From positions 19,723-83,722 of IMG/VR virus record IMGVR_UViG_3300032307_000705: DNA of 64,000 nt; one strand, 5' to 3'. Source of the stretch: a virus. Both the position numbers and the translations under genes were made by a program. Under the pieces are notes generated by a model, which was not told where the DNA came from, ran no database searches, and saw nothing but the letters and a program-made list of their open reading frames with translations. The first letter of the stretch is position 1; each line of letters starts with the position of its first letter. Below are positions 25,092-62,177 of this stretch, in pieces.

Positions 25092-25689
25092 TATTGAAAG
25101 ATACGGAAAATTCAAACCAACAGGAAAATACAAACAAAAGACGCAAATAATTTTGTGTCATACTTCAAGGGAAGTCGAGGAATACTTGGCTTCCCTTACG
25201 TTTAGATACAACACCAAATACGATAAAATACCAAACTATGTTGTGACTCGAGATGGAAGGGTATTACAATTATTGTCCAATGAAGGATATAGTAATTTCT
25301 TTAACGATGTAATAACAAACAAACTTTCGATAGTTGTGAGTTTGGAGAATTTGGGATGGTTGGAAAAGAAACCATTATCTAACCATTATATTAACTGGAA
25401 AGGAAGTATTTATAATCAACAGGTTTACGAAAAAAAATGGAGAGACTATTATTTTTGGCAACCTTACACTCCTGAGCAAATTCAAACAACTGCTGAGCTG
25501 TGTAAGTATTTGACAGATACTCTTCAGATTGAAAAGACGTGTGTAGGTCATAACACGAAAGTGGATGGTATAGAAAACTTCGAGGGTATTTGCTCGAGAA
25601 GTAACTACGACTCCACATTCACAGACTTAAGCCCATCATTCAATTTCGAAACCTTTATTAAATTTTTGGAAAATGAGCAATTTGCATAA
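25084..25689 (+). CDS. N-acetylmuramoyl-L-alanine amidase (endolysin, Amidase_2)
   Basis: 201 aa. The fold order is IILCHTSRE (H26, zinc ligand), PNYVVTRDGRVLQLL, IVVSLENLGWL, YTPEQIQTTAELCKYL, VGHNTKVDGIENFEG (H about 156) and ICSRSNYD (C about 170), matching T7-lysozyme/Amidase_2 zinc ligands H-H-C. It cuts the amide bond between N-acetylmuramic acid and L-alanine. There is no signal peptide, so it would need a holin. Surrounded by membrane genes, which fits a lysis cassette. Overlaps its neighbours on both sides. Confidence 0.82.
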   Translation: MVNIERYGKFKPTGKYKQKTQIILCHTSREVEEYLASLTFRYNTKYDKIPNYVVTRDGRVLQLLSNEGYSNFFNDVITNKLSIVVSLENLGWLEKKPLSNHYINWKGSIYNQQVYEKKWRDYYFWQPYTPEQIQTTAELCKYLTDTLQIEKTCVGHNTKVDGIENFEGICSRSNYDSTFTDLSPSFNFETFIKFLENEQFA

Positions 25690-26245
25690 CGAAAGGTACG
25701 ACGAGATTAAATCTCTATTAAAGAAGTCTAAATTACTCTTTGAGCAAGACGGACAAATAAACGTTGCTAAAGATGTTGAGAGTAGAATCCAACAGGATGT
25801 TGAGTATGATACTGCTGAGACTGAGGTTGATGCTGGTGAAGAACCAACTCCAAAAGATAAGTCCCAAAAATACAGAATTTCTGGAGGTATCTTGAAACTT
25901 CACGGTAAAGATAGAAGTGATTTGGATATCACCACAGATGAGAAAGTTGCTTTCCAAGAGACTATGGACGAATTCGTTGAGGAGGTTTCTGACTTGGTTG
26001 ATTTCAACACATTGAATGTATATAAAAATAGTGTTGAGTGGTCGGGAAAACTTATTGACGAGGACATTGACTTCATTTTTACAATCGGAGAAGACAGTGG
26101 AATCTATATCAACGGAGAAATGATTAAAGTTGACCAAGAGTTCTTGGATATGATTAATAAACTTCAACAATTCTATCAAAAGTTTAAGTCCAAGTGGGGT
26201 AAAGTTTTGGCGAATAGAAAAAAGACAGCAGAATCACCAGTTTAA
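25673..26245 (+). CDS. Putative virion/prohead-associated protein
   Basis: 190 aa. The N-terminus RYDEIKSLLKKSKLLFEQDG is an amphipathic basic helix ending in L-F-E, close to the capsid-targeting-like peptides seen elsewhere in the window, though it starts a few residues later. An acidic linker (about 40-60) precedes an alpha/beta domain (FTIGEDSGIYINGEMIKVDQ). Overlaps the amidase by 17 nt. Function unknown; association with the prohead is inference from the N-terminus. Confidence 0.5.
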   Translation: MSNLHNERYDEIKSLLKKSKLLFEQDGQINVAKDVESRIQQDVEYDTAETEVDAGEEPTPKDKSQKYRISGGILKLHGKDRSDLDITTDEKVAFQETMDEFVEEVSDLVDFNTLNVYKNSVEWSGKLIDEDIDFIFTIGEDSGIYINGEMIKVDQEFLDMINKLQQFYQKFKSKWGKVLANRKKTAESPV

Positions 26246-26246
26246 G

Positions 26247-26597
26247 ATGAGAGAGAAAATAATCAATAACAGACAAGACATATTACTTGCAATAGTAATG
26301 GTGTTAGCGTTATGGAATATTTTTAATACAAATGGGATTAAAACAGATGTGAAATCCTATAAAGAAAAGATTGAGAATATTCAAGTTGAAATTGATTCAG
26401 CTCAATCTGTCAACAAAGAGATGGATGAAAAAGTTTTGGTAATAAAAGAAACAGTAAATTCTATTACCAACGAAATTCATGAAATCGATAACAATATAGA
26501 AATGGTAAAAGAACAAACTGATGAAAAAGTTATTAGTGTTGGTTTTATTGGTAATGATGAGCTCGAGAAGCTTTTCGCAGACCGTTATTCAAACTGA
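26247..26597 (+). CDS. Spanin-like inner-membrane coiled-coil protein
   Basis: 116 aa. Residues 1-27 (REKIINNRQDILLAIVMVLA then LWNIF) give one N-terminal membrane helix; the remainder is a long coiled coil of Glu/Lys/Ile heptads. This is the shape of an i-spanin (Rz). The next gene begins inside its 3' end (77-nt overlap) in another frame, as o-spanin genes often do. Family-level sequence similarity to Rz is not evident, so this rests on architecture and position after the endolysin. Confidence 0.55.
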   Translation: MREKIINNRQDILLAIVMVLALWNIFNTNGIKTDVKSYKEKIENIQVEIDSAQSVNKEMDEKVLVIKETVNSITNEIHEIDNNIEMVKEQTDEKVISVGFIGNDELEKLFADRYSN

Positions 26598-26946
26598 AAC
26601 AACAGATTCTTCCAAAGTAGTATTAAGTGTTAGAGTTGCTAGATTGGTCTATCAAGATTTGTTAAAATATGATGGATTGAAGGAAGAGATGGGATTTATG
26701 AAACTTAAACTTCAAAAAGTAGAGGAAAGAGAGTTTCAAAAAGATAATATCATTACTATTTTGACACAAAAAGATGAGAACAATCAGTTCATCATTGGAA
26801 AAAAAGATGAACAACTTAAACTATCCAAAGAATTAACGGATAGTTTACATAAAGAATTAAAAGGTCAAAGAGCCCAAACATTCCTATGGAAAGTTGGGAC
26901 TTTTGTTGGCTTGGGATTAACATCGTTTTTATTAATAGGTAACTAA
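26521..26946 (+). CDS. Secreted/anchored coiled-coil protein, possible spanin partner
   Basis: 141 aa. An N-terminal signal peptide (MKKLLVLVLLVMMSSRSFSQ, cleavage predicted after SFSQ) is followed by a periplasmic coiled coil and a C-terminal membrane helix (FLWKVGTFVGLGLTSFLLIG). There is no lipobox Cys, so it is not a standard Rz1-type lipoprotein. It overlaps the preceding gene by 77 nt. Together the two genes look like an Rz/Rz1-type pair in which the outer partner differs. The start is supported by the signal peptide at the ORF start. Confidence 0.55.
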   Translation: MKKLLVLVLLVMMSSRSFSQTVIQTETTDSSKVVLSVRVARLVYQDLLKYDGLKEEMGFMKLKLQKVEEREFQKDNIITILTQKDENNQFIIGKKDEQLKLSKELTDSLHKELKGQRAQTFLWKVGTFVGLGLTSFLLIGN

Positions 26947-27191
26947 TGGCACTCACAAGTTCAGAAGCTAAAGAAATAGAAGTTATGATTCGTAAAGAAA
27001 TAAAATCCTTTATGAATAATAACACTATCAAACAATTTGAAGACCAATTGATGGACAGAATTCAAAAAGAAATAAAAAGAGGGAAGCTCGAAGGAGAAGT
27101 CAAAGACATTACTCTAAGAATGTTCCGAGAATTCTACCAATTCATGTGGATGAATAGAAGTTATTGGGAGCCAAGGCTTAAGAATGCCTAA
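26946..27191 (+). CDS. Small conserved helical protein
   Basis: 81 aa, wholly helical, with charged residues and an aromatic C-terminus (REFYQFMWMNRSYWEPRLKN). Starts on the last base of the upstream stop. The pattern is familiar from large-phage gene sets as a conserved protein of unknown role. No motif seen. Confidence 0.55.
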   Translation: MALTSSEAKEIEVMIRKEIKSFMNNNTIKQFEDQLMDRIQKEIKRGKLEGEVKDITLRMFREFYQFMWMNRSYWEPRLKNA

Positions 27192-27202
27192 AAATAAATG
27201 AA

Positions 27203-28180
27203 ATGAAAAGTTCAGCAGATTTATTCAAGAATAGTTTAGATAAAGCGTTTTCGCAGATAAGTCTGAACTCATCAACATTACAAGATCATATGAAATACAA
27301 ACAAGGATTCACAGAGGAAAATTTAGAAGGTGGTATCGCTGACAAAAAAACCGTTGAAGACATTGCAAAAAAATATAAGTTAGATGTTGAAGTCATCAAT
27401 AAACACTTGAATGATGGGATAAAAGTTGAAATGGAACATACCAATCTGAAAACTAAGGCAAAAGAAATTGCCATGGACCATTTATTTGAAGACCCTAATT
27501 ATTACACAAAATTAAAAAAAATGGAAGCAAAAGAATCTAAAGATTTGAAATTAAGTAAAAATGATAATGAGATGGTACGTGGTATCGTTGATATCATTAA
27601 TCAAGTCAAAGATGTTGAAAATAAAAAACAGATTGCTCGAAACATGGTTAAACAATTCAAAAAGGAAAACATTGAAGTCGACACCAATGAATTTTTGAAG
27701 ATGTGTAAGTTGAATGGTATGAAGAAAGAGGAAAATAACGAGGCGACAGGTTCTGGATCATCAGGAGCATATGTTGGGCCAGTATTTGGTGGTGATGATG
27801 AGTTTTGGGAAAGAAGTAGAAGTGAGACACCTAAATTGAAGGAAAGTGATGTGGAAAAGGTTGAAGCAAAAGAAGCGACGACAACAGGATCTTCAGGAGG
27901 ATATGAGACACCGGCAATGTGGGCAAAGTCTACAAAGAAAAAAGATTGGGGACCAAGTAGAAAAACTCAATACAAAGGTGGATCGTTTGTAAAGATTAAG
28001 AAGAAATGTACAACATTCCCATATTGTAATCAGGGTGATATCACAAACTTGAAACTAAGTAAAAATGAATCAGTTAAAGAAGCAATTAAGAATGTTGCGA
28101 GTAAATTGAATATTGATGAATCTCTTATTATAACTATTTTGGAACATGAGTACCAAATGAAGAATAAAAGGAACAAATAA
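27203..28180 (+). CDS. DUF5661-like virion-assembly protein
   Basis: 325 aa. Residues about 50-105 (TVEDIAKKYKLDVEVINKHL then GIKVEMEHTNLKTKAKEIAM and DHLFEDPNYYTKL) match DUF5661, known from phages. The middle holds a duplicated Gly/Ser motif (GSGSSGAYVGPVF at about 183 and TTGSSGGYETPAMW at about 230), and the region KGGSFVKIKKKCTTFPYCNQ recurs in structural proteins of related phages from memory. A C-terminal helical domain (KLSKNESVKEAIKNVASKL) follows. With the next gene it looks like a prohead core or internal head component. Confidence 0.6.
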   Translation: MKSSADLFKNSLDKAFSQISLNSSTLQDHMKYKQGFTEENLEGGIADKKTVEDIAKKYKLDVEVINKHLNDGIKVEMEHTNLKTKAKEIAMDHLFEDPNYYTKLKKMEAKESKDLKLSKNDNEMVRGIVDIINQVKDVENKKQIARNMVKQFKKENIEVDTNEFLKMCKLNGMKKEENNEATGSGSSGAYVGPVFGGDDEFWERSRSETPKLKESDVEKVEAKEATTTGSSGGYETPAMWAKSTKKKDWGPSRKTQYKGGSFVKIKKKCTTFPYCNQGDITNLKLSKNESVKEAIKNVASKLNIDESLIITILEHEYQMKNKRNK

Positions 28181-28183
28181 AGA

Positions 28184-28191
28184 TATTTATT
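28184..28191 (+). promoter_or_regulatory. Late-motif TATTTATT
   Basis: TATTTATT 16 nt upstream of ATG 28208. Confidence 0.5.
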
Positions 28192-28207
28192 ATAAAAAAT
28201 AAAAACA

Positions 28208-29641
28208 ATGAGAATCAACATAGACAAATTAGTTTCCAAAATATTGAACGAGGAAATTGAAAATAAAGCAAAACAAATTTCTGAACAGTTAGAAGAAGGA
28301 GAGTGGACTGAAATTGAAGTTGACGAACAACTTAAAGGTGGTCAAAAAAAGATTGATGTCGCCGAACCAAAAGGTAAAATCACAGCAGCAGACTTCAAAA
28401 AACTTAGAGATAATAAAACGAATAAAAAAGAAGTTGACGAGTTTTACTTTGAGTTTGATGGGGATGATTCTGAAGATGAAGAAATGGAAATGGGTAGAGA
28501 TAAATTTCATGTGACTCGTAAACCAAAAATGATGGGTTCATTTGATGATGATCACGGATTTTATGACGAAGACGAAAGACGATATACTGGAGATTTTGAC
28601 TTTGACTATGATGAAGAAGAGTTTGACGATTTCGATTCATTTGATTCTAAGTATGGAGGGAAACAAAGATTATTCGCGCCAGGTAAAGAGGGTAAAAAAT
28701 TCTTCGACATGTATAAAGAAAGGTTCGGTAAACCATTTAGAGTTAGAACTCCAAGAGACATGGGAGAAGCTGAGACTGAAGAAGGAAATGCATTTAGTGG
28801 AGCATTAGCAGACGCGAAGAAATCTGGTAAAGATTCATTTGAAGTTGATGGAAAAACATACAATGTTAAGGAAAATAGAAAATCTTCTTTGAAATTGACT
28901 GAAGATGAATTGATTGACCTAATCGAACAAATCGTGTTGGAGCAATCAGTAAAAGATAAAGACGAAAAATCAAATATTTCTAACAAGAGTCCTGAAGGTT
29001 TGAAAAAAACTGATAAGGTGTTGGGTCTTAATAAGAAAGAAAATGATGATTATGCTAAAGAGGTTGTCAAGAAGATGACAGATTATATGAAGGATATGGT
29101 TTCAGGTGGTAAAGGATATGATGAAAATCCTGACGACTTCCCTCAAAGTAATTATGACATGGAAAAAGACCATAAAGAAAAGAAATACCATCCGTCTGAT
29201 GCTGTTGAAGAATATATTGAAGCCTTTGCTTATCCTGGTATGACTAATTTGGTTTATGACGAAATCAAACCTGATGATGAAATGATTGAAAAACAAATCA
29301 AGGGAGATTCTAAAAATGGAAATGCGGTTACTGGTAAAGATGGTAAAGCATTAGGTAATGTTTCAAAAAGAAGTGAAAAAGTTGGAGAGAGATTCAAAAA
29401 GAATTTTGACGAAAACTTGTACGGAGCGGAACAAATGAACGTATCATATAAAAGACAACCACAACCTGTAGATATCGCTGGTGAAAAGAAAGAATCAGGT
29501 GGATTGAAGAAAGGTTCTACCGCAAAGGCTCAGAAAATAATGAACCAACTTGAGTCAAAAGAAGATAAGAAGTCTAAAGTTATTTCTGAAGAGATGGAAA
29601 AGATGAAAAATCTTATCGGATACAACAGAAAAACACAATAA
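28208..29641 (+). CDS. Acidic prohead-core-like protein with repeated targeting/cleavage motifs
   Basis: 477 aa, very acidic (residues 75-150 mostly D/E/F/Y/G), as in T4 head core and scaffold proteins. The N-terminus MRINIDKLVSKILNEE ends in L-N-E. A second copy of the same peptide type lies inside at about 228-246 (LTEDELIDLIEQIVLEQ, V-L-E). A third, near the C-terminus, is KVISEEMEKMKNLIGYN (V/I-S-E), related to the N-termini of the genes at 57046-58608. If a prohead protease cuts at (I/L/V)-x-E, this protein would be released in at least three pieces. A TATTTATT motif precedes it. Role inferred from composition and motifs. Confidence 0.65.
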   Translation: MRINIDKLVSKILNEEIENKAKQISEQLEEGEWTEIEVDEQLKGGQKKIDVAEPKGKITAADFKKLRDNKTNKKEVDEFYFEFDGDDSEDEEMEMGRDKFHVTRKPKMMGSFDDDHGFYDEDERRYTGDFDFDYDEEEFDDFDSFDSKYGGKQRLFAPGKEGKKFFDMYKERFGKPFRVRTPRDMGEAETEEGNAFSGALADAKKSGKDSFEVDGKTYNVKENRKSSLKLTEDELIDLIEQIVLEQSVKDKDEKSNISNKSPEGLKKTDKVLGLNKKENDDYAKEVVKKMTDYMKDMVSGGKGYDENPDDFPQSNYDMEKDHKEKKYHPSDAVEEYIEAFAYPGMTNLVYDEIKPDDEMIEKQIKGDSKNGNAVTGKDGKALGNVSKRSEKVGERFKKNFDENLYGAEQMNVSYKRQPQPVDIAGEKKESGGLKKGSTAKAQKIMNQLESKEDKKSKVISEEMEKMKNLIGYNRKTQ

Positions 29642-29657
29642 AAATTCACATTTATTT

Positions 29658-29665
29658 TATTTATA
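29658..29665 (+). promoter_or_regulatory. Late-motif TATTTATA
   Basis: TATTTATA 15 nt before ATG 29681, inside an AT-rich spacer. Confidence 0.4.
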
Positions 29666-29680
29666 TTATATTCTCCATAG

Positions 29681-30157
29681 ATGAACTCTATGGAGAATTT
29701 TTTTAATTGGATAGCCAAACCAGTTCCCAATGACGAAGTGGTCATTTGGTTTAACGTGCACAATATGATTTATGAAAAAATTGAATTATATGGTGATATA
29801 TTCAAATCATTGAACTATGTGATTACTGATACCTATATGGGTGATTCAAATGGCAACGCAATTGAAACTAAAATAGTTTTATCTCAAGATGATAAAAAAT
29901 CTCATTTTGACTGGTGCTGGGAGAAAATGATTGAAAATTTCAAGAAAGAAAATATAGTAATTACTTTGAATGGAGAACATAAAGACTATTTGAAATCATT
30001 TTACATGGATACGTTTTATAACCAAAGTGAAAAAAAAGTTAAAGACTCCGTTCCAATATTTCTAAACGATATATTCAATATGTCAAAACCATTTAGCAAG
30101 TCAGATTTAGATATGCTCACGGAGATTTACAAAATGATGGAAAAAAATGTTAAGTAG
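29681..30157 (+). CDS. Conserved phage protein of unknown function
   Basis: 158 aa. The start is at ATG 29681; a second Met follows at residue 4. Aromatic-rich N-terminus (MENFFNWIAKPVPNDEVVIW then FNVHNM) and a central HFDWCWEKMIENFKKENI. This arrangement is familiar from conserved proteins of large phages, but no function is known to me. Alpha-helical second half. Confidence 0.6.
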   Translation: MNSMENFFNWIAKPVPNDEVVIWFNVHNMIYEKIELYGDIFKSLNYVITDTYMGDSNGNAIETKIVLSQDDKKSHFDWCWEKMIENFKKENIVITLNGEHKDYLKSFYMDTFYNQSEKKVKDSVPIFLNDIFNMSKPFSKSDLDMLTEIYKMMEKNVK

Positions 30158-30237
30158 AAAAAAACCATACTCTATTTACACAGGGACAAATAAAGTTATT
30201 TTTATCACATAAACAATAAACATTAATTAGATTAGAA

Positions 30238-33089: not shown

Positions 33090-33263
33090 ATGTTAAGTGA
33101 ACAAATTCGTAGAATCCTTTATATGTACCTTGACGAGAAGGAACAAGGAAAATATAAAAAACCTCGCAAATATAGTAAATCGTATTGTGAATCTACACCA
33201 TGTGATGAAATGGGATTCACACAGAAAGCATCTTGTCGCCCATACAAAAATTGTTATAAGTAA
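33090..33263 (+). CDS. Small Cys-containing protein with capsid-targeting-like N-terminus
   Basis: 57 aa. MLSEQIRRILYMYLDEKEQ is a basic amphipathic helix ending in L-D-E. A basic linker (KYKKPRKYSK) precedes SYCESTPCDEMGFTQKASCR and PYKNCY, four Cys in a conserved layout that I recall from T4-like marine phages. The cargo part would remain after cleavage at L-D-E. Starts 10 nt from the divergent CxxC membrane gene. Confidence 0.68.
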   Translation: MLSEQIRRILYMYLDEKEQGKYKKPRKYSKSYCESTPCDEMGFTQKASCRPYKNCYK

Positions 33264-34182: not shown

Positions 34183-35523
34183 ATGAAATTTACTTCGTTA
34201 TTAAAGTCAATCATAGTTGAACAGTCAAGATTTGAGGTTTTGATGAACGCTTTAACTAAATCTGGTAAGGACAAAGAGGGCAATAAGTTAAGACCTAAAC
34301 TTTCAAAGAAAGAGTTTGTTGATTTGGTATTGGCAGACCCAACAACTAGATTAAACAATGTGGACATAGAAACCGCAACTCCTGAGGAATTGGGTAAAAT
34401 TAAAGCGGGAAGTTATGTTCCATGGTTGGTGAAACATTATTTGATACCAAAAACTGAGACAAGTCCTGGTGACTATACCTATGAAAAAGATGTAAAACGG
34501 GCGAAGGATGTTTTCATGGAAGACCTTTACAAGGTTACTGATGACCTTAAAAAGTTTGATAGATTCAAAGGACGACTTCCTAAAGAAATGAGAGACATCA
34601 ACAAGTTAACACCAGATCAACTTTATGATGCGGTTAAAGATTTTGATTTAACATTAGCGACTACAACAAAGGCAGAAAGAAAGTCTGCACCTGTTCATCC
34701 AGGAGCAAAGTTAGTTTATGACGGGGAAAATTGGAGGGTTGTTGAAATTGAGGACAAAGGACAAGTAGGTAAGGAGGCGGCTTGTTTCTATGGTGGAAAC
34801 AACCAAGAAACGAGATGGTGTACTTCAGCACCAGGGGCTAGTTGGTTCGACAGATACATAAAAGACGGACCGTTATATGTTATTTTCAATCCTAATGATA
34901 CTGATGTCAGTCCAATGACAGGTCTTCCTAAAGAAAGATATCAATTCCATTTCCAATCTAATCAATTCATGGATAAGGATGACAGACAACAAGATTTAGT
35001 TCAATTATTGAATGGGTCTATGTCTGAGTTGAAACCTTTCTTCAAACCTGAATTTGCAAAAAATATTGTACTCGGAGGTAAAGAATTGAAAATTGAGAGT
35101 TTAACTTCAGGTTCTGTTGGTAAATTCATTGCATTATATGGTTTAGAGGATTTGATGGACAGTTTACCTAAATCTTTGGAAAGAATTCTAATTCAAAACA
35201 GAGACAGTAAAGACCCAATACATGTGGAATTACCTGAAGATATCGGCAAGCTTCAAAACTTGACGAATATTCTTACAGACAATATTACATTCTCAAAAAT
35301 ACCTGATTCAATATGTAATCTTAAAAATTTGAATTTTTTAGCGATTACTAGAAATCCTGAATTAACAACAATACCTGATTGTGTTGCTGATTTACCGAAT
35401 CTTATGTTTTTGAATCTAAAAGGATCTGACAACGCAAGAATACCTAAGAAAATAGAAGAAAAAGGTGATCCAATAGGCCCTAACATGTGGGATTTGGAAT
35501 TAATGGACAAAAGTGAAGATTAG
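34183..35523 (+). CDS. Leucine-rich-repeat protein with 'RWCTS' domain and capsid-targeting-like N-terminus
   Basis: 446 aa. N-terminus MKFTSLLKSIIVEQ is a basic amphipathic helix ending in I-V-E. Residues 15-200 are helical (KKEFVDLVLADPTTRLNNVD; PWLVKHYLIPKTE). At about 210 lies ETRWCTSAPGASWFDRY, the W-C-T domain shared with the gene at 14818. Residues 346-425 have leucine-rich repeats (LPEDIGKLQNLTNIL; IPDSICNLKNLNFLAI; IPDCVADLPNLMFLNL). LRRs normally bind proteins. If the N-terminus targets the prohead, this would be an injected LRR effector. TATTTATT precedes it. Confidence 0.65.
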   Translation: MKFTSLLKSIIVEQSRFEVLMNALTKSGKDKEGNKLRPKLSKKEFVDLVLADPTTRLNNVDIETATPEELGKIKAGSYVPWLVKHYLIPKTETSPGDYTYEKDVKRAKDVFMEDLYKVTDDLKKFDRFKGRLPKEMRDINKLTPDQLYDAVKDFDLTLATTTKAERKSAPVHPGAKLVYDGENWRVVEIEDKGQVGKEAACFYGGNNQETRWCTSAPGASWFDRYIKDGPLYVIFNPNDTDVSPMTGLPKERYQFHFQSNQFMDKDDRQQDLVQLLNGSMSELKPFFKPEFAKNIVLGGKELKIESLTSGSVGKFIALYGLEDLMDSLPKSLERILIQNRDSKDPIHVELPEDIGKLQNLTNILTDNITFSKIPDSICNLKNLNFLAITRNPELTTIPDCVADLPNLMFLNLKGSDNARIPKKIEEKGDPIGPNMWDLELMDKSED

Positions 35524-45920: not shown

Positions 45921-46283
45921 ATGGCAAAAGTAATAAAATTAACTGAATCGGATTTAACAAGAGTTGTTAGAAGAGTGATTAACGAACAAATGTATCACCG
46001 AGAACATATTTACAGAATACAGGCTTTTCTGAATAAAAGAATGAATGCGGGTTTGGTAGTTGATGGTAGAACTGGTCGAAATTCAAAGACTGAGGAAGCA
46101 ATTGCTAAATACCAAGACATGATCGGAGTATATCCTACAGATGGACAATTTGGGGACAAAACTTACGCCAAAATGCCTGAAAAGGACAAAATTATGTTGA
46201 AAAACATAAATGCTAATGAGTATGGTGTACACGAAGATTATTGGGGAAATTTTCTCGATTGGGTCAAAAAACAGTTCCAATGA
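45921..46283 (+). CDS. Peptidoglycan-binding protein with capsid-targeting-like N-terminus
   Basis: 120 aa. KLTESDLTRVVRRVINEQ is a very clear example of the N-terminal basic helix ending in I-N-E. Residues about 30-95 (YRIQAFLNKRMNAGLVVDGR then TEEAIAKYQDMIGVYPTDGQ and FGDKTYAKM) match the PG_binding_1 fold (repeat of 'IQ..L...G...DG.fG..T..AI..fQ'). If packaged and processed after E, the cargo is a peptidoglycan-binding domain, which fits a role at genome entry through the cell wall. Overlaps the DHH gene by 4 nt. Confidence 0.75.
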   Translation: MAKVIKLTESDLTRVVRRVINEQMYHREHIYRIQAFLNKRMNAGLVVDGRTGRNSKTEEAIAKYQDMIGVYPTDGQFGDKTYAKMPEKDKIMLKNINANEYGVHEDYWGNFLDWVKKQFQ

Positions 46284-47683
46284 AAAAAATATTAAAAGAG
46301 AGTGGTATTCGGGATATTAAAGAATTAAGTAAACGATATCCCAAGGCAGAAATCTACTTCCATCAGGATTTAGATGGGGTAACGACTGCGATTGCAATGA
46401 AAAAGTACCTTGAGAGTAATGGTATTGATGTTGTTGACGCTCACGTAATTCAATACGGGGACAAAGAATTCGCAGTAAAAAAGAATGACGCAATGGGAGA
46501 TACCATGCCAGTACTTGTTGACTTTGCACATGGAAAACCAATGTTTGTTATTCACACAGACCATCATGATAGACAGGCTGGTGCTGAAGATACAAAGTCT
46601 ACATCATTTCGACAGTCTCGATCTAATGTTGCAACAATATCACAGGTTGTTTCACCAAAAGACCTTTTTCCATCATCAGATATATTGTTAATCAATACAG
46701 TTGACTCAGCAGATTTTGCAAGACAAAACTTAAGTCCCGAAGACGTAGTTAATTATCTTTACCGATTTGATAGAGAAACTTCCCTTCAAGGAAATAAGAT
46801 GTTGTTAGGATTGGTGATTAACAAATTATTGCTAGCGTTCAAGAACAAACCTGGTTTCTTAGAGATGTTAGTTATGGATTCACAACCATCTCTGATGTCT
46901 ATTTTGAATAATATCAAATCTTGGATGAAGTCTGTTGGAGCTCCAACACCTGAAGAACTACAGAAGAACGCCGAAGATTATACACAGAAAATGAAATCAT
47001 TTCCAACTGTAACGGATAATATCATTTTCCAATATGGTGGAGGAAGTATGTTTAAGCCAGGTTCTTATGATAGATACACTCCTTATAAGAACAATCCTGA
47101 GGCAGATTTTTTAATTATGGCATGGCCGATGGGACTTGTCCAAGCATCTTGTAACCCATTCAAACAAGATAGAGAACTTAAAGGTGTAAATTTGGGTGAG
47201 ATTGCTCAGGAAGTATTGGGTAAATGGGAAGAACAATTAAGACAAAAAACTGTCCCATTATCAACAATAAAGTGGGTTAGTGAAACAAGTGTTGGACCTG
47301 AGAGTATTGGATTCACATTCAAAGATTTTAAGGCGTTGTATGGGGACAAAATAATGTTCATGGATAATGGTGAAAAAGTCATGAGTAAAATTGAATCTAT
47401 GATGGAAAAACCTTTCAAGAGTTTGACTGAAGATGAGATGAGAATTTTGGATAAAATTGGAGTCAATGCTTGGGATTTGATACAATCTAACTCAGGTGGA
47501 CACAAATGTATTACAAATATATCAGGGTTAAACTATCTTGGTAGAAGTACAAGACCTCCTCAAGGTGGATACAAGTATAATGATTCAGAAGATAGTCCAA
47601 CAGTTAAGTTTACAAAAATGATTGCAAATCAATTCCAAAAAATTTTGAAGGAAAAAATAGCGGAATCTAAAACAAGTAATTAA
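46280..47683 (+). CDS. DHH-family phosphoesterase-like protein with capsid-targeting-like N-terminus
   Basis: 467 aa from ATG 46280, coupled to the upstream stop (ATGA). An in-frame upstream start at 46241 is rejected. MKKILKESGIRD starts with a short I/L-K-E peptide. Then IYFHQDLDGVTTAIAM (H28, D30, D32), VDFAHGK (D81) and IHTDHHDRQ (D94-H95-H96) form the DHH phosphoesterase metal site. A C-terminal SSGGHKCI-like segment (NSGGHKCITNISGL) fits the DHHA1 G-G-G-H motif. The substrate may be a small nucleotide or RNA/DNA 5' end, as in RecJ/NrnA/GdpP; none can be fixed. Convergent overlap of 17 nt with the DUF192 gene. Confidence 0.75.
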   Translation: MKKILKESGIRDIKELSKRYPKAEIYFHQDLDGVTTAIAMKKYLESNGIDVVDAHVIQYGDKEFAVKKNDAMGDTMPVLVDFAHGKPMFVIHTDHHDRQAGAEDTKSTSFRQSRSNVATISQVVSPKDLFPSSDILLINTVDSADFARQNLSPEDVVNYLYRFDRETSLQGNKMLLGLVINKLLLAFKNKPGFLEMLVMDSQPSLMSILNNIKSWMKSVGAPTPEELQKNAEDYTQKMKSFPTVTDNIIFQYGGGSMFKPGSYDRYTPYKNNPEADFLIMAWPMGLVQASCNPFKQDRELKGVNLGEIAQEVLGKWEEQLRQKTVPLSTIKWVSETSVGPESIGFTFKDFKALYGDKIMFMDNGEKVMSKIESMMEKPFKSLTEDEMRILDKIGVNAWDLIQSNSGGHKCITNISGLNYLGRSTRPPQGGYKYNDSEDSPTVKFTKMIANQFQKILKEKIAESKTSN

Positions 47684-48640: not shown

Positions 48641-48712
48641 CGCAGGATAGAGCAGTGGAAGCTCGTCAGGCTCATAACCTGAAGGTCGAAAGTTCGAATC
48701 TTTCTCCTGCTA
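48641..48712 (+). tRNA. tRNA with CAU anticodon (Met, or Ile2 if modified)
   Basis: 72-nt cloverleaf: acceptor CGCAGGA/TCCTGCT (six pairs plus a C1/U72 mismatch), D arm GAGC/GCTC with loop AGTGGAA, anticodon stem TCAGG/CCTGA with loop CTCATAA (anticodon CAT at 48673-48675), T arm GAAAG-TTCGAAT-CTTTC. CCA is not encoded. It lacks the three G-C pairs of initiator tRNA, so elongator Met or Ile2 (lysidine at C34) are the choices. Confidence 0.85.
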
Positions 48713-48716
48713 CATC

Positions 48717-55429: not shown

Positions 55430-55861
55430 ATGAGAGACCTTATCCGAAAAATATTAAGAGAAGAACGAAACGTTGATTATACTCGTCTAATACAGAAACT
55501 AGTTGATAGCTCTATAGTTTCCAAATATCCTGATGATATTTGTAAAATAGAAGTTGATGGGAATACTAAAAATGTTCAATATCCAAGATATTGGGTTTCA
55601 GTGATATTCAAAGTCAGTCTCAATCATCTTACGGTCCATGATTTAGCAAAAAATATAATGAATGAAATTTACACTACTGTAAATGATTACTTTGGGATCC
55701 CACCTCAAATGCGTTCGGCATTTGTCCGTAATTGTGAGGAGGATACTACAGATTTATTCGAAGGTGAAATAACTGAAAGATGTTGGAAAGGATATACTCA
55801 GAAAGGGATGAAAACCATGTTTGGAAAAAGATATCCGAACTGTGTTAAGAAAAAGAAATAA
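55430..55861 (+). CDS. Capsid-targeted cargo-type protein with C-terminal 'PNCV' motif
   Basis: 143 aa from ATG 55430 (an upstream ATG at 55415 would place the late motif inside the gene). MRDLIRKILREE is a basic amphipathic helix ending in L-R-E. An alpha/beta domain follows (VSVIFKVSLNHLTVHDLAKN), then the C-terminus ERCWKGYTQKGMKTMFGKRY and PNCVKK, a motif that I recall at the ends of structural/head proteins of related phages. Strong candidate for a packaged internal protein. Terminator follows. Confidence 0.68.
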   Translation: MRDLIRKILREERNVDYTRLIQKLVDSSIVSKYPDDICKIEVDGNTKNVQYPRYWVSVIFKVSLNHLTVHDLAKNIMNEIYTTVNDYFGIPPQMRSAFVRNCEEDTTDLFEGEITERCWKGYTQKGMKTMFGKRYPNCVKKKK

Positions 55862-56386: not shown

Positions 56387-56393
56387 AAAAGTT

Positions 56394-56991: not shown

Positions 56992-56996
56992 TTAAG

Positions 56997-57024: not shown

Positions 57025-57034
57025 ATTTCCTGTA

Positions 57035-57042
57035 TATTTATC
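57035..57042 (+). promoter_or_regulatory. Late-motif TATTTATC
   Basis: TATTTATC 3 nt before ATG 57046. Confidence 0.55.
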
Positions 57043-57045
57043 TAT

Positions 57046-57927
57046 ATGAATTTGCATGAAGACATAAATAGGATTAAGGAAGTCATGGGACTCGACAGGA
57101 AACCTGAAGTTGTTAGGAAAGGTGAACTTACTAACAAATACGGTGAAGAGATAACTATGATATTATTTGATGATGGGGAAGTAAATTTCAAACATACTGA
57201 CTATGGTAATGAATTCCTACCACTAAGAAGTCTGTTACGTAAAGATTCTGAAGGAAACTCAATGTTTATGGTGGTTCTGAATCAAGAGGAAAAAGATTTT
57301 GTTAATAACTTCCTCCGAGATACAAAATATCAAAATGAAAGTTACAATCCGACAATCACTGAAAGCCGTGATATGTTCTTCAGGAGAAGACAGGACGAAT
57401 TTCTTGATGATCTTATTACTTCTTTCGAGTGGATGGAGGTAGAAGAAGCGGATAGTTTTGAAGAATATCTTGAGATGATTTTAACACATTCAATAGATGG
57501 TTTCTTTGGTCATAATAATATTCTTCTGACTTATGAAGAAATAGAGGAGCTAATCCCATTTGCTCTTCAAACATTACGTAATGACGAAAGATTATTTAGA
57601 AAAATCAGACACCATTACTATTCAAGTGAAGACTCATCAATCAATGAATCCAAGGAACTTGTTCGTGTCAAAAGAAGAATGGATGCTTTGCTTGATTATA
57701 TTGAAGCTTCATATGATTGGTTGTCACCACGTAGATTCAAAGACTTTGATGATTTTTTAGAAAGGGTTGCATTCTCAGCAACAAGAGATTTTGTTGCCGA
57801 TGAAATAGGAGGGGAATACCAAGAACAGTTAAAAATATGTGACGAGTTAGAGCCAATGGTATTGGATTTAATAAAGAAACATTCGATATACGATGAGATT
57901 TACGATCACTATATCTCCAACATATAA
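57046..57927 (+). CDS. MNLxEDINRIKEVMG family protein with two domain copies
   Basis: 293 aa. N-terminus MNLHEDINRIKEVMGLDRKP is the founder of a three-gene family. Residues 20-85 are a unique part (KYGEEITMILFDDGEVNFKH). Then two copies of an ~80-residue helical domain follow: about 104-196 (FRRRQDEFLDDLITSFEWME ... LFRKIRHHYY) and about 205-293 (KRRMDALLDYIEASYDWLSP ... YDEIYDHYIS). The same domain is single in the next two genes. I-K-E in the N-terminus is a candidate cleavage site. Function unknown; probably packaged virion proteins. Confidence 0.62.
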   Translation: MNLHEDINRIKEVMGLDRKPEVVRKGELTNKYGEEITMILFDDGEVNFKHTDYGNEFLPLRSLLRKDSEGNSMFMVVLNQEEKDFVNNFLRDTKYQNESYNPTITESRDMFFRRRQDEFLDDLITSFEWMEVEEADSFEEYLEMILTHSIDGFFGHNNILLTYEEIEELIPFALQTLRNDERLFRKIRHHYYSSEDSSINESKELVRVKRRMDALLDYIEASYDWLSPRRFKDFDDFLERVAFSATRDFVADEIGGEYQEQLKICDELEPMVLDLIKKHSIYDEIYDHYISNI

Positions 57928-57931
57928 CCAA

Positions 57932-58276
57932 ATGAATTTACAAGAAGATATAAATAGAATCAAGGAGGTTATGGGGATCAATGAAGGTTTCCTTAATACT
58001 TTTCTAAGAAGAAGAATTCCTGCGTTTTTAGATGCAGTTGTTGATGTTGCTGACCAAATATATGTTAGGGGAGACAGAGAATATTCTGACGATGATTTCA
58101 GGAATTTTTTAGACAGGTCAATATTTGCTTCAGTAAGAGACGTAGTAGAAACTTATGATTTAACCCACGAAGAATTAAGGGAACTTGAAATTATTTTATT
58201 AAGAACAATCAATAGAGACAGAGAACTGTTTCAAACACTCAAACAAATCTACATAAGCAAACTCCATTTAGAATGA
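57932..58276 (+). CDS. MNLxEDINRIKEVMG family protein, single domain copy
   Basis: 114 aa from ATG 57932 (frame is open further upstream over the end of the previous gene, rejected). MNLQEDINRIKEVMGINE then GFLNTFLRRRIPAFLDAVVD and one ~80-residue helical domain ending LFQTLKQIYISKL. Paralog of the genes on both sides. Candidate cleavage after I-K-E or I-N-E. Confidence 0.65.
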   Translation: MNLQEDINRIKEVMGINEGFLNTFLRRRIPAFLDAVVDVADQIYVRGDREYSDDDFRNFLDRSIFASVRDVVETYDLTHEELRELEIILLRTINRDRELFQTLKQIYISKLHLE

Positions 58277-58608
58277 ACTTAAAAGAAGATATAGATAGAA
58301 TCAAAGAAGTGATGGGGATTAATGAGAGTAACCCATATCTTAAGAGAAGATTCCCTGAACTTATTCCTGCGGTTATTCAAGCCGCAGAGTGGTACGTTCC
58401 ATCATTCATGCCTGACTTTGAGACATATGTAGATAGAGCAATATACTCGGGGATTATAAGTGTAATACCTGATAGTTATGCTGATTCACACGCGGATGAA
58501 ATGTATGAGTTAGAAGATATGGTCAGAAATTACATCTACAATAATGAGGAAGCACACGAGAAGTTTAAGTCTTTATATATGGGTAGTGGCAAAAAATATA
58601 AAGGGTAG
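58273..58608 (+). CDS. MNLxEDINRIKEVMG family protein, single domain copy
   Basis: 111 aa, start overlapping the previous stop (GAATGA). MNLKEDIDRIKEVMGINE then YLKRRFPELIPAVIQAAEWY and a domain ending AHEKFKSLYMGS. Third member of the family. It converges with the minus-strand MKYIISE family. Confidence 0.65.
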   Translation: MNLKEDIDRIKEVMGINESNPYLKRRFPELIPAVIQAAEWYVPSFMPDFETYVDRAIYSGIISVIPDSYADSHADEMYELEDMVRNYIYNNEEAHEKFKSLYMGSGKKYKG

Positions 58609-58615
58609 TAACCAA

Positions 58616-58900
58616 TTACCCAGCCATATAAACTTTCACATGAAATTCATTCTCAAACCAATTCGTAATGAATCTAACTGCTTCCTTTCGAGTAAGACCG
58701 AACATAGTTTCGAACTCATCCAAGAATTCGCCCAATATGAATAGTTCTCTTTTTCTTGGGAAATATTCTAAATAGTTCTCCTCATCATCATACACGGCGA
58801 TACCCGCTTGATTATCGATTACATCCTTACTTAATAAGAAAGAATCCAAATACTTTTTCATGATGTTATCAAGTCGACTCTCGGAGATAATATATTTCAT
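58616..58900 (-). CDS. MKYIISE family protein, copy 1
   Basis: 94 aa from ATG 58900 (the frame extends into the upstream gene; not used). MKYIISESRLDNIMKKYLDS then FLLSKDVIDNQAGIAVYDDE, RELFILGEFLDEFETMFGLT and RKEAVRFITNWFENEFHVKV. Four tandem copies plus one distant copy exist. The first 7 residues end in I-S-E. Small alpha/beta fold with a helix-strand-helix pattern; function unknown. Confidence 0.65.
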   Translation of the reverse strand: MKYIISESRLDNIMKKYLDSFLLSKDVIDNQAGIAVYDDEENYLEYFPRKRELFILGEFLDEFETMFGLTRKEAVRFITNWFENEFHVKVYMAG

Positions 58901-59190
58901 TTTACATTGAATTCTTTCTTGAACCAATCTTTTATAAAGGTAATAGATTCTTCATAATCTTTATTAAACAAATAGCTGAATTCCTCAATAAATTGATTGT
59001 TCACCCATAAGTCCTCATCGTCATGGTTATAGAACATATATTCAGTCCAAAAAGAAGTGTCATCATCAGTATTCCGATCCGCGATTACCAAACTATCACC
59101 ATAATCCAAGATTTGTTTGGAGGTTAAGAATGAATCCAAATAACTTGTCATGATTTTATCAAGCCGACCCTCAGATATAATATATTTCAT
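58897..59190 (-). CDS. MKYIISE family protein, copy 2
   Basis: 97 aa. MKYIISEGRLDKIMTSYLDS then FLTSKQILDYGDSLVIADRN and LFNKDYEESITFIKDWFKKE. First of the coupled pair 59190-58616 (4-nt overlap with copy 1). Late motif 3 nt upstream of its ATG. Confidence 0.65.
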   Translation of the reverse strand: MKYIISEGRLDKIMTSYLDSFLTSKQILDYGDSLVIADRNTDDDTSFWTEYMFYNHDDEDLWVNNQFIEEFSYLFNKDYEESITFIKDWFKKEFNVK

Positions 59191-59193
59191 ATA

Positions 59194-59201
59194 GATAAAT
59201 A
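59194..59201 (-). promoter_or_regulatory. Late-motif TATTTATC
   Basis: Minus-strand TATTTATC, 3 nt before ATG 59190. Confidence 0.55.
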
Positions 59202-59209
59202 TAAGGAAA

Positions 59210-59503
59210 TTAAAACGAGGTCATTGATTTTCGGACTGTAACTCCAAATTGGTTTTCAAACCAACCGAGAATGAATTGGAGAGCTTGGGGTCTTGTAAGG
59301 TTAAACATGGTTTCGAAAGTATCTAAAAAGTCCTCTAATGTAAATAACTCTCTTGGTCTTGGCAAGTAAGTAAAAAGTAAGTTATCTCCATCGTACACGA
59401 GGGTACTTGTTTGGGTATTAATTATATCTTTATCCAATAAAAAACTGTCCAAGTATTTTATCATGATTTTATCAAGCTGACTTTCAGATATAATATATTT
59501 CAT
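59210..59503 (-). CDS. MKYIISE family protein, copy 3
   Basis: 97 aa. MKYIISESQLDKIMIKYLDS then FLLDKDIINTQTSTLVYDGD and LEDFLDTFETMFNLTRPQAL. Very close to copy 1 in the second half. Its upstream 83 bp are nearly identical to those of copy 4, so this was a recent duplication. Late motif 3 nt upstream. Confidence 0.68.
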   Translation of the reverse strand: MKYIISESQLDKIMIKYLDSFLLDKDIINTQTSTLVYDGDNLLFTYLPRPRELFTLEDFLDTFETMFNLTRPQALQFILGWFENQFGVTVRKSMTSF

Positions 59504-59565
59504 GTTAATAAATATCGGTTAAATAAAAAGGGGGTTGGGGGAAAATCGAACCCGGTGTACGACAG
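59483..59565 (-). repeat. Direct repeat, copy A (upstream region of MKYIISE copy 3)
   Basis: About 83 bp covering the first codons, the late motif and a GGGGG/CCCCC-rich stretch. Repeated at 59858-59941 with only a few differences. It ends in a T-arm-like GGGTTCGATT segment on the minus strand. Confidence 0.75.
59507..59514 (-). promoter_or_regulatory. Late-motif TATTTATT
   Basis: Minus-strand TATTTATT, 3 nt before ATG 59503, inside repeat A. Confidence 0.55.
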
Positions 59566-59566
59566 A

Positions 59567-59878
59567 TTAATAGGTGAATGGTTCATCAGGAAATAACAAC
59601 CATACTGTCCTTGCTCGTGTATTATATTCGTCCTGAAACCAATTTCTAATATATCTCATACTTTCTTTTCGACTTAAATTAAAAATGGTGTCTATATCTT
59701 CAATTAAATCAGTGCTAATGTATAATCTCTCTTCTTCATAACGGTAAGCCAGTACTTCACTATTACCCTGCATTATATCGAACCCATCGGCATCATCATT
59801 CCCTTCTGTGAACCCCAAAGAACTTAAGTACTTATTCACCAATCTCTCTAATCTTTGTTCAGATATAATATATTTCAT
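59567..59878 (-). CDS. MKYIISE family protein, copy 4
   Basis: 103 aa. MKYIISEQRLERLVNKYLSS then GNDDADGFDIMQGNSEVLAY and IEDIDTIFNLSRKESMRYIR. The most divergent packaged copy, with a longer linker after helix 1 and a proline-rich C-terminal tail (LLFPDEPFTY). First gene of the minus-strand cluster. Late motif 3 nt upstream. Confidence 0.65.
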   Translation of the reverse strand: MKYIISEQRLERLVNKYLSSLGFTEGNDDADGFDIMQGNSEVLAYRYEEERLYISTDLIEDIDTIFNLSRKESMRYIRNWFQDEYNTRARTVWLLFPDEPFTY

Positions 59879-59941
59879 GTTAATAAATATCGGTAAAATA
59901 AAAAAGGGGGTTGGGGGATAATCGACCCCGGCATACGACAG
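59858..59941 (-). repeat. Direct repeat, copy B (upstream region of MKYIISE copy 4)
   Basis: About 84 bp nearly identical to 59483-59565; includes the first codons of copy 4, TATTTATTAAC and the GC-rich block. Confidence 0.75.
59882..59889 (-). promoter_or_regulatory. Late-motif TATTTATT
   Basis: Minus-strand TATTTATT, 3 nt before ATG 59878, inside repeat B. Confidence 0.55.
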
Positions 59942-59994
59942 TTATATTGTTACAAACTATTTAATATTATAATAATATAAGTATATTAGAAATT

Positions 59995-60477
59995 ATGTAC
60001 AAAAAATTATTCACTAAAAATGAATGTGACGACCTTATATCCTTTGCTGAAGGTCAAAACGAATGGGAGAAAATTACTGATTTTTCAAGTTATCAGATTT
60101 TTACTTTCCAACCGGGTAATCATGTTTCCGATAGGATAATTAATTACGGAAAAGAAAAATTAGGACTATCAATTTTATCCGTCAACCTGGCGATATTAAA
60201 GTATGAGGTGGGAGACCATTTTCCGAGACACATAGATAGAACTCAAGAAAAAGAATTCAACAAAGATTTTTTATATAACATTAATGTTAAACTTAATGAC
60301 GACTACGAAGGTGGGGAATTTTTCCTCAATGATAAATTGTTTGTCGCAGATGTGGGAGATGTCTATCATTATAAATCTACGGAGTTTCATGAAGTTAAAC
60401 TTGTAACCAAAGGATTAAGATATTCAGGATTATTCTACATCAGAGAAAGAGATCTCGGAGTATCAAAATTAATATGA
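59995..60477 (+). CDS. 2-oxoglutarate/Fe(II)-dependent oxygenase
   Basis: 160 aa. GDHFPRHIDRTQ (H79-x-D81), distal EFHEV (H132) and LRYSGLFYIR (R142, binds 2-oxoglutarate) complete the catalytic set of prolyl-hydroxylase-like 2OG oxygenases. NVKLNDDYEGGEFFLND is the typical 'L-x-x-x-Y-x-G-G-x-L/F' strand. Phage members may hydroxylate proteins or nucleobases. An AT-rich leader precedes it; no promoter recognised. Confidence 0.82.
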   Translation: MYKKLFTKNECDDLISFAEGQNEWEKITDFSSYQIFTFQPGNHVSDRIINYGKEKLGLSILSVNLAILKYEVGDHFPRHIDRTQEKEFNKDFLYNINVKLNDDYEGGEFFLNDKLFVADVGDVYHYKSTEFHEVKLVTKGLRYSGLFYIRERDLGVSKLI

Positions 60478-60480
60478 CAG

Positions 60481-60894
60481 TTACAATGTCATACCACATT
60501 CCTTAGTCACGGGTTCTAGGACCCATTCTTCCTTTAATACTTCAGGTAAGTCACTTATTTTATTTGTCACGGGTACAAGAACTTGCTCGTCCATAGACTT
60601 TCTCACGTACTTATACTTAGGTCGACAGTCCACCCAATGATTCACTACGGTGTCAGCGGTGATATAATTCACAGAGAACATCAACTCCAATCTGGCGATG
60701 ATTTCCTTTCTCATGTCAAACCAACTATTTTTAGACCTACCGACTCTTCTATCGTCAAACCAATTTCCTTGTGCATCCTTATCAAAGGTCTCTACCACAT
60801 CGCCCAAGTGATTTAACTCCAATAGATAAATCTCAGGGTACATGGAGTCCAAGTACGACATCATCAATCTCTTAAGTTTCAGGGTATTCTTCAT
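60481..60894 (-). CDS. MKYIISE-family domain without targeting peptide, early-type promoter
   Basis: 137 aa from ATG 60894. LKRLMMSYLDSMYPEIYLLE then ELMFSVNYITADTVVNHWVD aligns with the four copies at 58616-59878 (KKYLDSFL ... ETMFGLTRKEAVRFITNWFE), but the N-terminus is MKNTLKLKRLMMS, with no I-S-E peptide. Instead of TATTTAT it has a host-type promoter (TTG-N20-TACCTTTG). The C-terminal ~35 residues (SMDEQVLVPVTNKISDLPEV) are extra. So this copy is probably made early and stays in the cell. Confidence 0.62.
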   Translation of the reverse strand: MKNTLKLKRLMMSYLDSMYPEIYLLELNHLGDVVETFDKDAQGNWFDDRRVGRSKNSWFDMRKEIIARLELMFSVNYITADTVVNHWVDCRPKYKYVRKSMDEQVLVPVTNKISDLPEVLKEEWVLEPVTKECGMTL

Positions 60895-60899
60895 AGTTC

Positions 60900-60930
60900 C
60901 AAAGGTACGAATAATAATCAGATTATCCAA
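60900..60930 (-). promoter_or_regulatory. Bacteroidota-type promoter
   Basis: On the minus strand TTG (60930-60928), 20 nt, TACCTTTG (60907-60900), 5 nt before ATG 60894. Confidence 0.6.
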
Positions 60931-60962
60931 CAAGTTCGTTCATTCAAAAGGTGGGGGTTTTA

Positions 60963-60970
60963 TATTTATT
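60963..60970 (+). promoter_or_regulatory. Late-motif TATTTATT
   Basis: TATTTATT 4 nt before ATG 60975. Confidence 0.55.
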
Positions 60971-60974
60971 AAAG

Positions 60975-62177
60975 ATGAGAGAACTTATTAGACATATTAT
61001 TCGAGAACAAACGAGGGAAGTTATTTTAGAGATGCCAAAAAAATCAACCCAAGATGAATTTATTACGAAAGCTAAGGGAATTCATGGTGATAAATACGAC
61101 TATTCTGAAGTAGAATATAAATCTAATCATGTACCTGTCACTATTATTTGTCCGATTCATGGGTCATTTTCACAAACGCCTGCTTCTCATTTAATGGGAA
61201 GGGGTTGTAAACCATGTGGTTACAAAACCACTACAGAAAAAAATACATTTTGGACTAAAGAGGAAGCATTCAAAGAGGCTTCAAAATATGAAAACCTGAC
61301 TGATTTCCAAAGGTTCTCTGGAGGTGCATATGCTTCAGCAAAAAAAAATGGTTGGGTAGAGGATATTACAAAAAACTACGTAGTAAAAAAAATAGATTGG
61401 ACAATCGATAAATTGAGGGATATTACCTTACAATACGATAATGTCAAAGATTTTAGAAGAGACTATTATAATGCATATCATGCCCTTAGAAGAAAAGGAC
61501 TTCTTTATGACTTCACATCTCATATGGTCAGACCAAATGAATGGTCTGATGAGGATATAGAGAACGAGGCACGTAAATATAAAACAATTCAAGATTTTTG
61601 TAATGCCTCTCCGAATTTGTGTAATTATGCTAGACGCAGGGGATTAATGTCAAAGTTCAAAGAGTTTTTAGATTCTAAACTAACAAATTGGACTGATGAT
61701 ATGTTAAAAAAAGAAGCATTAAAATATCAAACATCTGTGGATTTCGCTCGAGAATCAGGAGGAGCTTATAAAGCAGCAATTAAGAGAGGAATTTATAATC
61801 AAATAACTTCTCATTTCTTAACAAAAGTATCTTCAGGCGAAATACTTATCGAAAACTTATTGGTTAAAAATAAAATCAAATTCTATAAACAACATAAATT
61901 TTTAGATTGTCATAATAGTAGACAAGGAACTGCATGTAAACAATTACCATTCGATTTTTATTTACCAAAATATAATTGTTGTATCGAATATGATGGTGAA
62001 CAACATTTCAAACCTAAAAAATTTTTCGGAGGAGAAGAAGGGTTTTTAAGAAGGCAACAATTAGATAAAATCAAAGACCAATACTGTGAAGAAAACGGAA
62101 TCAAACTTATCCGAATTCCTTACACGATGAAGAAGGAAGATATAGAACCATATATCTTAAGTGAATTAGGAATGTAA
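60975..62177 (+). CDS. Vsr/PD-(D/E)XK-like endonuclease with DUF723-like and repeat domains, capsid-targeting-like N-terminus
   Basis: 400 aa from ATG 60975; an upstream frame (60951) is rejected because of the late motif. MRELIRHIIREQ ends in I-R-E, followed by a second site V-I-L-E before MPKKS. Then a DUF723-like zinc part (FITKAKGIHGDKYDYSEVEY; CPIHGSF; GCKPCG), three helical repeats (WTIDKLRDITLQYDNVKDF; WSDEDIENEARKYKTIQDF; WTDDMLKKEALKYQTSVDF), and a C-terminal nuclease core: QLPFDFYLPKYNCCIEYDGE then QHF and GIKLIRIPY. Close to phage homing-type or Vsr-like nucleases. If packaged, it would enter the cell with the DNA. Confidence 0.72.
   Translation: MRELIRHIIREQTREVILEMPKKSTQDEFITKAKGIHGDKYDYSEVEYKSNHVPVTIICPIHGSFSQTPASHLMGRGCKPCGYKTTTEKNTFWTKEEAFKEASKYENLTDFQRFSGGAYASAKKNGWVEDITKNYVVKKIDWTIDKLRDITLQYDNVKDFRRDYYNAYHALRRKGLLYDFTSHMVRPNEWSDEDIENEARKYKTIQDFCNASPNLCNYARRRGLMSKFKEFLDSKLTNWTDDMLKKEALKYQTSVDFARESGGAYKAAIKRGIYNQITSHFLTKVSSGEILIENLLVKNKIKFYKQHKFLDCHNSRQGTACKQLPFDFYLPKYNCCIEYDGEQHFKPKKFFGGEEGFLRRQQLDKIKDQYCEENGIKLIRIPYTMKKEDIEPYILSELGM

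Follow-up and report, generated by a model that had tools for sequence, protein, structure and literature searches.

N-terminal peptides shared by unrelated proteins

The window, a 64,000-nucleotide stretch covering bases 19723-83722 of the 83,722-base virus record IMGVR_UViG_3300032307_000705 (a fragment, G000), contains a series of genes whose products differ in their bodies and begin with a short peptide ending in hydrophobic-x-Glu (Table 1). With a probability of about 0.84, these peptides, called tags here, are capsid-targeting propeptides that would be removed by the prohead protease from cargo probably carried into the host. All of the N-terminal peptides listed in the original prediction were present, in place or shifted by a few residues; that of gene 45921, MAKVIKLTESDLTRVVRRVINEQ, had been recorded without its first six residues. 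The carriers had been described as a dozen unrelated proteins. Many bodies were indeed found, but about ten body types rather than a dozen lie in the window, because the four MKYIISE genes are paralogues. Of two genes that had been called less clear, 1351 proved to be a good case, whereas 25673 was conserved in a relative but lacked the other marks of a tagged gene.

Since (I/L/V)-x-E often arises by chance, a bare (I/L/V/M)-x-E ending was treated as weak evidence. Sites were counted in which the Glu of hydrophobic-x-Glu fell at position 7-24 and the next residue was small or polar, and the counts were compared with those in shuffled N-termini. Two larger related records gave 97 sites versus 39.3 +/- 5.6 (G002, an excess of about 58 genes) and 74 versus 38.4 +/- 5.8 (G001, an excess of about 36 genes), and the isolated phage immuto gave 34 versus 23.8 +/- 4.3. 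The excess over the shuffles was taken as the objective figure because the tagged-gene counts per genome (61 in G002 and 46 in G001) include hand-chosen patterns, some of them wrong (4 of 117 were removed later). The 113 tagged proteins of G000, G001 and G002 together fell into 79 body families.

A peptide profile was built from G002 N-termini and was not used as the main proof because its training set, consisting of protein starts, biased it toward such positions. A tblastn search of annotated phages with a 24-residue query of the commonest peptide, which was too short, gave no match, and a degenerate DNA pattern was adopted for that reason. This pattern, which encodes the core TESDLxRLVKRV, was scanned against IMG/VR viral contigs with no start codon required. 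Among the matches listed were 88 sites in 80 stretches, and all 88 lay at a protein start, with the nearest ATG 1 to 8 residues away. The bodies behind these listed sites formed 47 unrelated families by BLAST. The Glu at position 22 (P1), which was absent from the search pattern, was found in all 47 family representatives. Position 20 (P3) was Ile in 42, Leu in 2, Val in 2 and Thr in 1 (I/L/V in 46 of 47), position 21 (P2) was variable, and position 23 was Gln in 25 of 47. The information content in these representatives was 4.3 bits at the Glu, dropped to about 2 one residue later and then to about 1, and was about 0.5 beyond. Because P1 and P3 were fixed, P2 was variable and conservation was lost just after the Glu, the profile looks like a protease site that ends a docking helix. 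The predicted sharing of an N-terminal peptide by otherwise unrelated proteins was borne out by the 88 listed sites and their 47 body families.

Probable cleavage rule of the prohead protease

Because the window's record is a fragment, the head genes were taken from relatives. Profile searches of these relatives identified a Peptidase_S77 protein (the family of T4 gp21, E 1e-22) and a Gp23 capsid protein (E 1e-62). When the capsid proteins were aligned, the column of the known T4 cleavage point, FLTE↓A (arrows mark the cut, which is presumed outside T4), contained LINE↓A in G001 and G002, LISE↓A in Microcystis phage Mel-JY01, IVSE↓A in immuto and LLKE↓A in the 484 kb phage LR756508; RM378 departed from the pattern. 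All 80 of the close capsid relatives compared had LINE↓A at this site. The gene directly upstream of the capsid gene, which is probably the scaffold gene, ended in LIE↓S/T-KTYENPQFLRMKDLMSKLG or a near variant in the contigs where the tail was found. The tag ends INE↓Q, IKE↓Q and ISE↓Q obey the capsid-site rule. These results support the proposal of T4-style tags cut after (I/L)-x-E by the prohead protease. A protease with a different rule had been named beforehand as counter-evidence; the protease of the near relatives is of the T4 type, and the rule read from their capsid protein is the matching one. Cleavage of the phiKZ type, after S/A-x-E, was rejected since none of the 47 representatives had Ser or Ala at P3 and the capsid site was LINE↓A.

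Possible links of the tagged genes to the head

One tag class, MNLxEDINRIKEVMGINE, is similar to the tail found at the C-terminus of the probable scaffold proteins. When 1087 C-termini were scored with the matrix of this class, built without immuto or Mel-JY01 sequences, the scaffold tails of immuto and Mel-JY01 ranked 2nd and 5th, whereas the G001 and G002 tails reached rank 18 and the LR756508 tail rank 82. Tag-like sequences (EKLQEEIIRIKELLYL; VTESLKRINEIMKQL) were also seen at the extreme C-terminus of some proteins (G001 237671-238441, G001 103324-103734 and G002 77581), where they are possible targeting tails. A protein of the head region (G001 134094-134789, G002 101177-102019) had a tag-like segment near its C-terminus (NESLRDLIVKILKE, NESLRGLIKRVLKE), and only the G001 copy had a clear N-terminal tag as well.

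The motif RTATTTATW was strongly enriched directly upstream of genes in G001 and G002 and was found in the window upstream of 28208, 34183, 55430 and 60975, among others. Its distance to the ATG was mostly 11-13 or 20-28 bases, and it had no -35 element; this arrangement resembles the T4 late promoter, and the motif is considered a putative late promoter. If it is a -10 element, the short spacing (11-13) would imply nearly leaderless messages. The motif preceded 9 of the 21 structural genes that were recognised and none of 17 replication genes. Tagged genes were preceded by it in 36 of 61 cases in G002, compared with 66 of 360 other genes (18%, p = 2e-10), and in 21 of 46 cases in G001, compared with 57 of 369 (15%, p = 7e-6). 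No tag was found on any of the 17 replication genes. In immuto, which was isolated on Flavobacterium sp. LMO8, the tagged genes within gp076-gp095 adjoin the terminase, portal, protease and capsid genes, and in LR756508 tagged genes stand on both sides of the capsid gene. One gene row beside the latter (LR756508 17721-23600) has the tags MRLKEILLE and MKFKELLKEQ, and an LYRGT-type motif there recalls ADP-ribosyltransferases such as T4 Alt.

The tag as a separable module

Viral contigs encode 574 relatives of the nuclease at 60975. Most of those inspected begin directly at the nuclease domain, without a tag, and only a few, related to one another, bear an extra 20-odd residues such as MKQLIRHILRE↓H or MKELIRHILYNHINE↓Q. 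The DHH protein encoded at 46280 is 97% identical to its G001 counterpart and 73% identical to that of G002; the first seven residues, MKKILKE versus MKNLITE in G002, have only the Met, a Lys and the final Glu in common. Its homologues in two megaphages of 634 and 642 kb (45% and 40% identical) start with MISKYNQFINE↓E and MLRKYGQFINE↓E, which are close to the T4 peptide MKTYQEFIAE↓A. Because the start of the DHH protein differs by phage lineage, the same cargo appears to wear the tag "dialect" of its own phage. Judged from these comparisons, the tag is mobile between protein bodies. The 634 and 642 kb genomes encode gp23-type capsid proteins, and their S77 matches were below the family cut-off. 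In the 642 kb genome (LR756502), 140 of 943 open reading frames fitted a loose tag pattern, compared with 55 +/- 6.6 after shuffling (an excess of about 85), and the 140 matches, with T4-like starts such as MKHLKTYKIFE↓S, represented 130 body families.

Source phage, tagged genes and cargo

Relatives of the 28208 protein were found in 20 viral contigs with 41-96% identity over the best segment, including G001 (a 326 kb record, 92%) and G002 (a 321 kb record, 68%). In G001, a short gene at 141697-141888 (+) separates the protease gene from the portal gene and runs in the opposite direction to both; from its sequence it was read as the gene of ribosomal protein bS21. A bS21-like gene in this position and orientation is diagnostic of the Bacteroidetes phages of Chen et al. 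2022 (PMC9723584), which are freshwater phages of 293-331 kb. Because the G001 layout matches these phages, the window's phage is, by gene order, a T4-type jumbo phage of freshwater Bacteroidota, a host assignment that rests on that paper.

Table 1. Genes of the window with an N-terminal tag or a candidate tag (arrows, presumed cut; motif, RTATTTATW-type upstream motif)
Position	Strand	Product	Peptide	Remarks
1351-1521	-	56-residue open reading frame	MKLIKTIEKIIQEAE	TATTTATA 13 bp upstream; orthologues in G001 (303350) and G002 (314187)
25673-26245	+	Weak candidate	MSNLHNERYDEIKSLLKKSKLLFEQ	Kept in G002; without motif; unmatched by peptide profile
28208-29641	+	477-residue protein	MRINIDKLVSKILNEE	Motif 24 bp upstream
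33090-33263	+	57-residue Cys-rich protein	MLSEQIRRILYMYLDEKE; MLSEQIRRILYMYLDE	G002 orthologue MILEQIIKRVLYQYLDEKE
34183-35523	+	446-residue protein with leucine-rich repeats	MKFTSLLKSIIVE↓Q (MKFTSLLKSIIVEQ)	Motif 24 bp upstream
45921-46283	+	120-residue protein, weak peptidoglycan-binding match	MAKVIKLTESDLTRVVRRVINE↓Q	
46280-47683	+	467-residue DHH-family phosphoesterase-like protein	MKKILKE↓S	
55430-55861	+	143-residue protein	MRDLIRKILRE↓E (MRDLIRKILREE)	Motif 12 bp upstream
57046-57927	+	293-residue protein	MNLHEDINRIKEVMG	Scaffold-tail-like class
57932-58276	+	114-residue protein	MNLQEDINRIKEVMGINE↓G	
58273-58608	+	111-residue protein	MNLKEDIDRIKEVMGINE↓S	
58616-58900	-	Paralogue 1, 94 residues	MKYIISE	
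58897-59190	-	Paralogue 2, 97 residues	MKYIISE	
59210-59503	-	Paralogue 3, 97 residues	MKYIISE	Motif 11 bp upstream
59567-59878	-	Paralogue 4, 103 residues	MKYIISE	Motif 11 bp upstream
60975-62177	+	400-residue homing-endonuclease-like nuclease	MRELIRHIIRE↓Q (MRELIRHIIREQ)	Motif 12 bp upstream

The 57046, 57932 and 58273 genes all begin with MNLxEDIxRIKEVMG. The first half of the 28208 protein is acidic and variable, and the second half is better conserved. The protein also has a second tag-like segment ending in VLE↓Q (internal peptide LTEDELIDLIEQIVLE↓Q, near residues 231-246) and a tail like that of the scaffold, ISEEMEKMKNLIGYNRKTQ. It probably belongs to the head or core and would be made with a long propeptide. 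Its AlphaFold model was poor, with a mean predicted local distance difference test score (pLDDT) of 51.6.

The cargo candidates of the window comprise the leucine-rich repeat (LRR) protein, the protein with the weak peptidoglycan-binding match, the DHH phosphoesterase-like protein and the homing-type nuclease. Those of the relatives include an M23 peptidase with lysozyme and peptidoglycan-binding domains, a glucosaminidase, an L,D-transpeptidase and a C39-type cysteine protease. The DHH protein of G002 (255156-257312) has an extra C-terminal domain matching the type VI secretion system effector TseH (E 6e-8), which is missing from the DHH protein of the window. No match to the latter was found among the solved structures compared by sequence. 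Jumbo-phage DHH enzymes are predicted to destroy cyclic-nucleotide defence signals (PMC7824862), and one may speculate that delivery together with the DNA would suit such an anti-signal role. The window also contains one tRNA-Met(CAT) gene at 48641-48713.

Proposed function and alternative explanations

The sequences strongly imply that the tagged proteins are packaged into the head. We further infer from them that the tags are cleaved by the prohead protease and what the individual cargo proteins may do, and the cargo may be injected into the host. In the proposed mechanism, the short amphipathic helix would dock the newly made protein onto the assembling prohead core, and the T4-type prohead protease would then cut after hydrophobic-x-Glu and release the protein within the head. 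The DNA would be packaged around the freed cargo, which would probably enter the host alongside it and act ahead of phage gene expression.

In a reading that differs only in the last step, the tagged proteins, once packaged and cleaved, serve as structural core or filler and are kept in the head or degraded. The core proteins of T4 are cut likewise and mostly removed (PMC9026906), and the 28208 protein resembles such a core protein. This explanation is unlikely, since many of the bodies are enzymes (M23 with lysozyme, glucosaminidase, L,D-transpeptidase, C39-type protease, DHH and homing-type nuclease) and the tagged Ip1-3 and Alt of T4 are injected (PMC9026906, PMC12373910). Less probable still is an uncleaved helix that docks the proteins to a replication compartment, a membrane or the tail, with the final Glu as part of the binding surface. 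It would agree with conservation that spans the whole helix and is not confined to its end, and cleavage was deduced from sequence. The sharp drop in conservation right past the Glu, the fixed P3 and P1 with a variable P2, the identical rule in the capsid protein, the resemblance of one tag class to the scaffold tail and the untagged replication genes all argue against it. That the peptide is an export signal directing wall enzymes to the periplasm for lysis is very improbable. Several cargo proteins are peptidoglycan enzymes, but the peptide is also present on nucleases, DHH and LRR proteins, it ends at the rule of the capsid protease, and on reading by eye it forms a charged, amphipathic helix that lacks the hydrophobic core expected of Sec signals. 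A Sec signal peptide was rejected because the uncharged hydrophobic core was not seen in the sequences read. The commonness of (I/L/V)-x-E and the four paralogous MKYIISE genes could be cited for an origin by chance, by simple paralogy or through misassigned start codons, but this explanation can be dismissed in view of the shuffle test (about 58 and 36 genes above shuffles), the unanchored scan with 88 of 88 listed sites N-terminal on 47 unrelated bodies, and the invariant Glu.

Several points weigh against capsid targeting and injection. The protease and capsid protein were read from near relatives, the window's own record being a fragment without head genes, and in that record the excess of sites was modest (19 versus 11.0 +/- 3.0 in shuffled N-termini). 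Tagged genes are numerous for a single capsid, and several tagged proteins are wall hydrolases that might serve lysis instead. In the MKYIISE class the cut could follow IISE or lie farther along, with MKYIITEAQYKKLISE↓Q among the relatives as an example of the latter. No virion proteomics for this phage group or for immuto was found in the searchable literature. There is an even chance of a wider version of the capsid-targeting reading, in which the T4-type jumbo phages and megaphages of Bacteroidota share a general delivery system with dialects matched to the scaffold, any tagged gene is cargo, and dozens to about a hundred proteins are injected to disarm the host before phage expression.

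The results suggest that each virus particle carries a large protein cargo into the host cell. Most jumbo-phage genes are without an assigned function, and with a tag that can be read from the N-terminus, dozens per genome could be classed as virion-carried and the first residue of each mature protein could be marked. It would provide a direct route to a list of candidate injected anti-defence and host-takeover proteins, including those of uncultured phages and of the largest known phages. It also raises the testable question of whether the tag dialects are matched to each scaffold.

Comparison with known systems

The mechanism itself is not new because T4 provides the precedent: a few proteins are packaged through a 10-residue capsid-targeting sequence that is removed by gp21, with Alt losing 7 residues and gp23 65 (PMC9026906), and the injected Ip1-3 inhibit GmrSD restriction enzymes (PMC12373910). 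At least ten Ips have been reported in T-even phages (PMC12373910). The tagged proteins described here are like IPI, IPII, IPIII and Alt of T4 in that a short N-terminal propeptide with a hydrophobic-x-Glu end is borne by unrelated proteins, and the S77 protease and gp23 capsid protein are present in the relatives. The MKHLKTYKIFE↓S of the 642 kb phage nearly equals the MKTYQEFIAE↓A of T4. Unlike T4 with its handful, these phages have dozens of tagged genes per genome (in the 642 kb phage, about 85 more than expected by chance). Their peptides exceed that of T4 in length, at about 22 residues for the commonest class, and form several classes, and the cargo takes in wall enzymes, proteases and nucleases. 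Repertoire size, dialects and occurrence in Bacteroidota jumbo phages or megaphages were not found in the searchable (non-subscription) literature, within which the scale, lineage-specific dialects and cargo of the system appear to be undescribed.

The inner-body and ejection proteins of phiKZ and SPN3US resemble the proposed system in that many head proteins are cut by a phage prohead protease and ejected into the host. Their rules, S/A-x-E in phiKZ and A-x-E in SPN3US (PMC9026906, PMC10052503), are not the rule found here, and most SPN3US propeptides are long (111-254 residues) with no shared tag. In jumbo size, freshwater origin and bS21 gene layout, the phages studied here are like those of Chen et al. 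2022 (PMC9723584), the available part of which does not mention N-terminal peptides. Al-Shayeb et al. 2020 (PMC7162821) described the Mahaphages, which are 634-735 kb in size and have predicted Bacteroidetes hosts; no such peptide was found when that paper was searched by term. The Mahaphages of 634 and 642 kb bear the tagged DHH protein.

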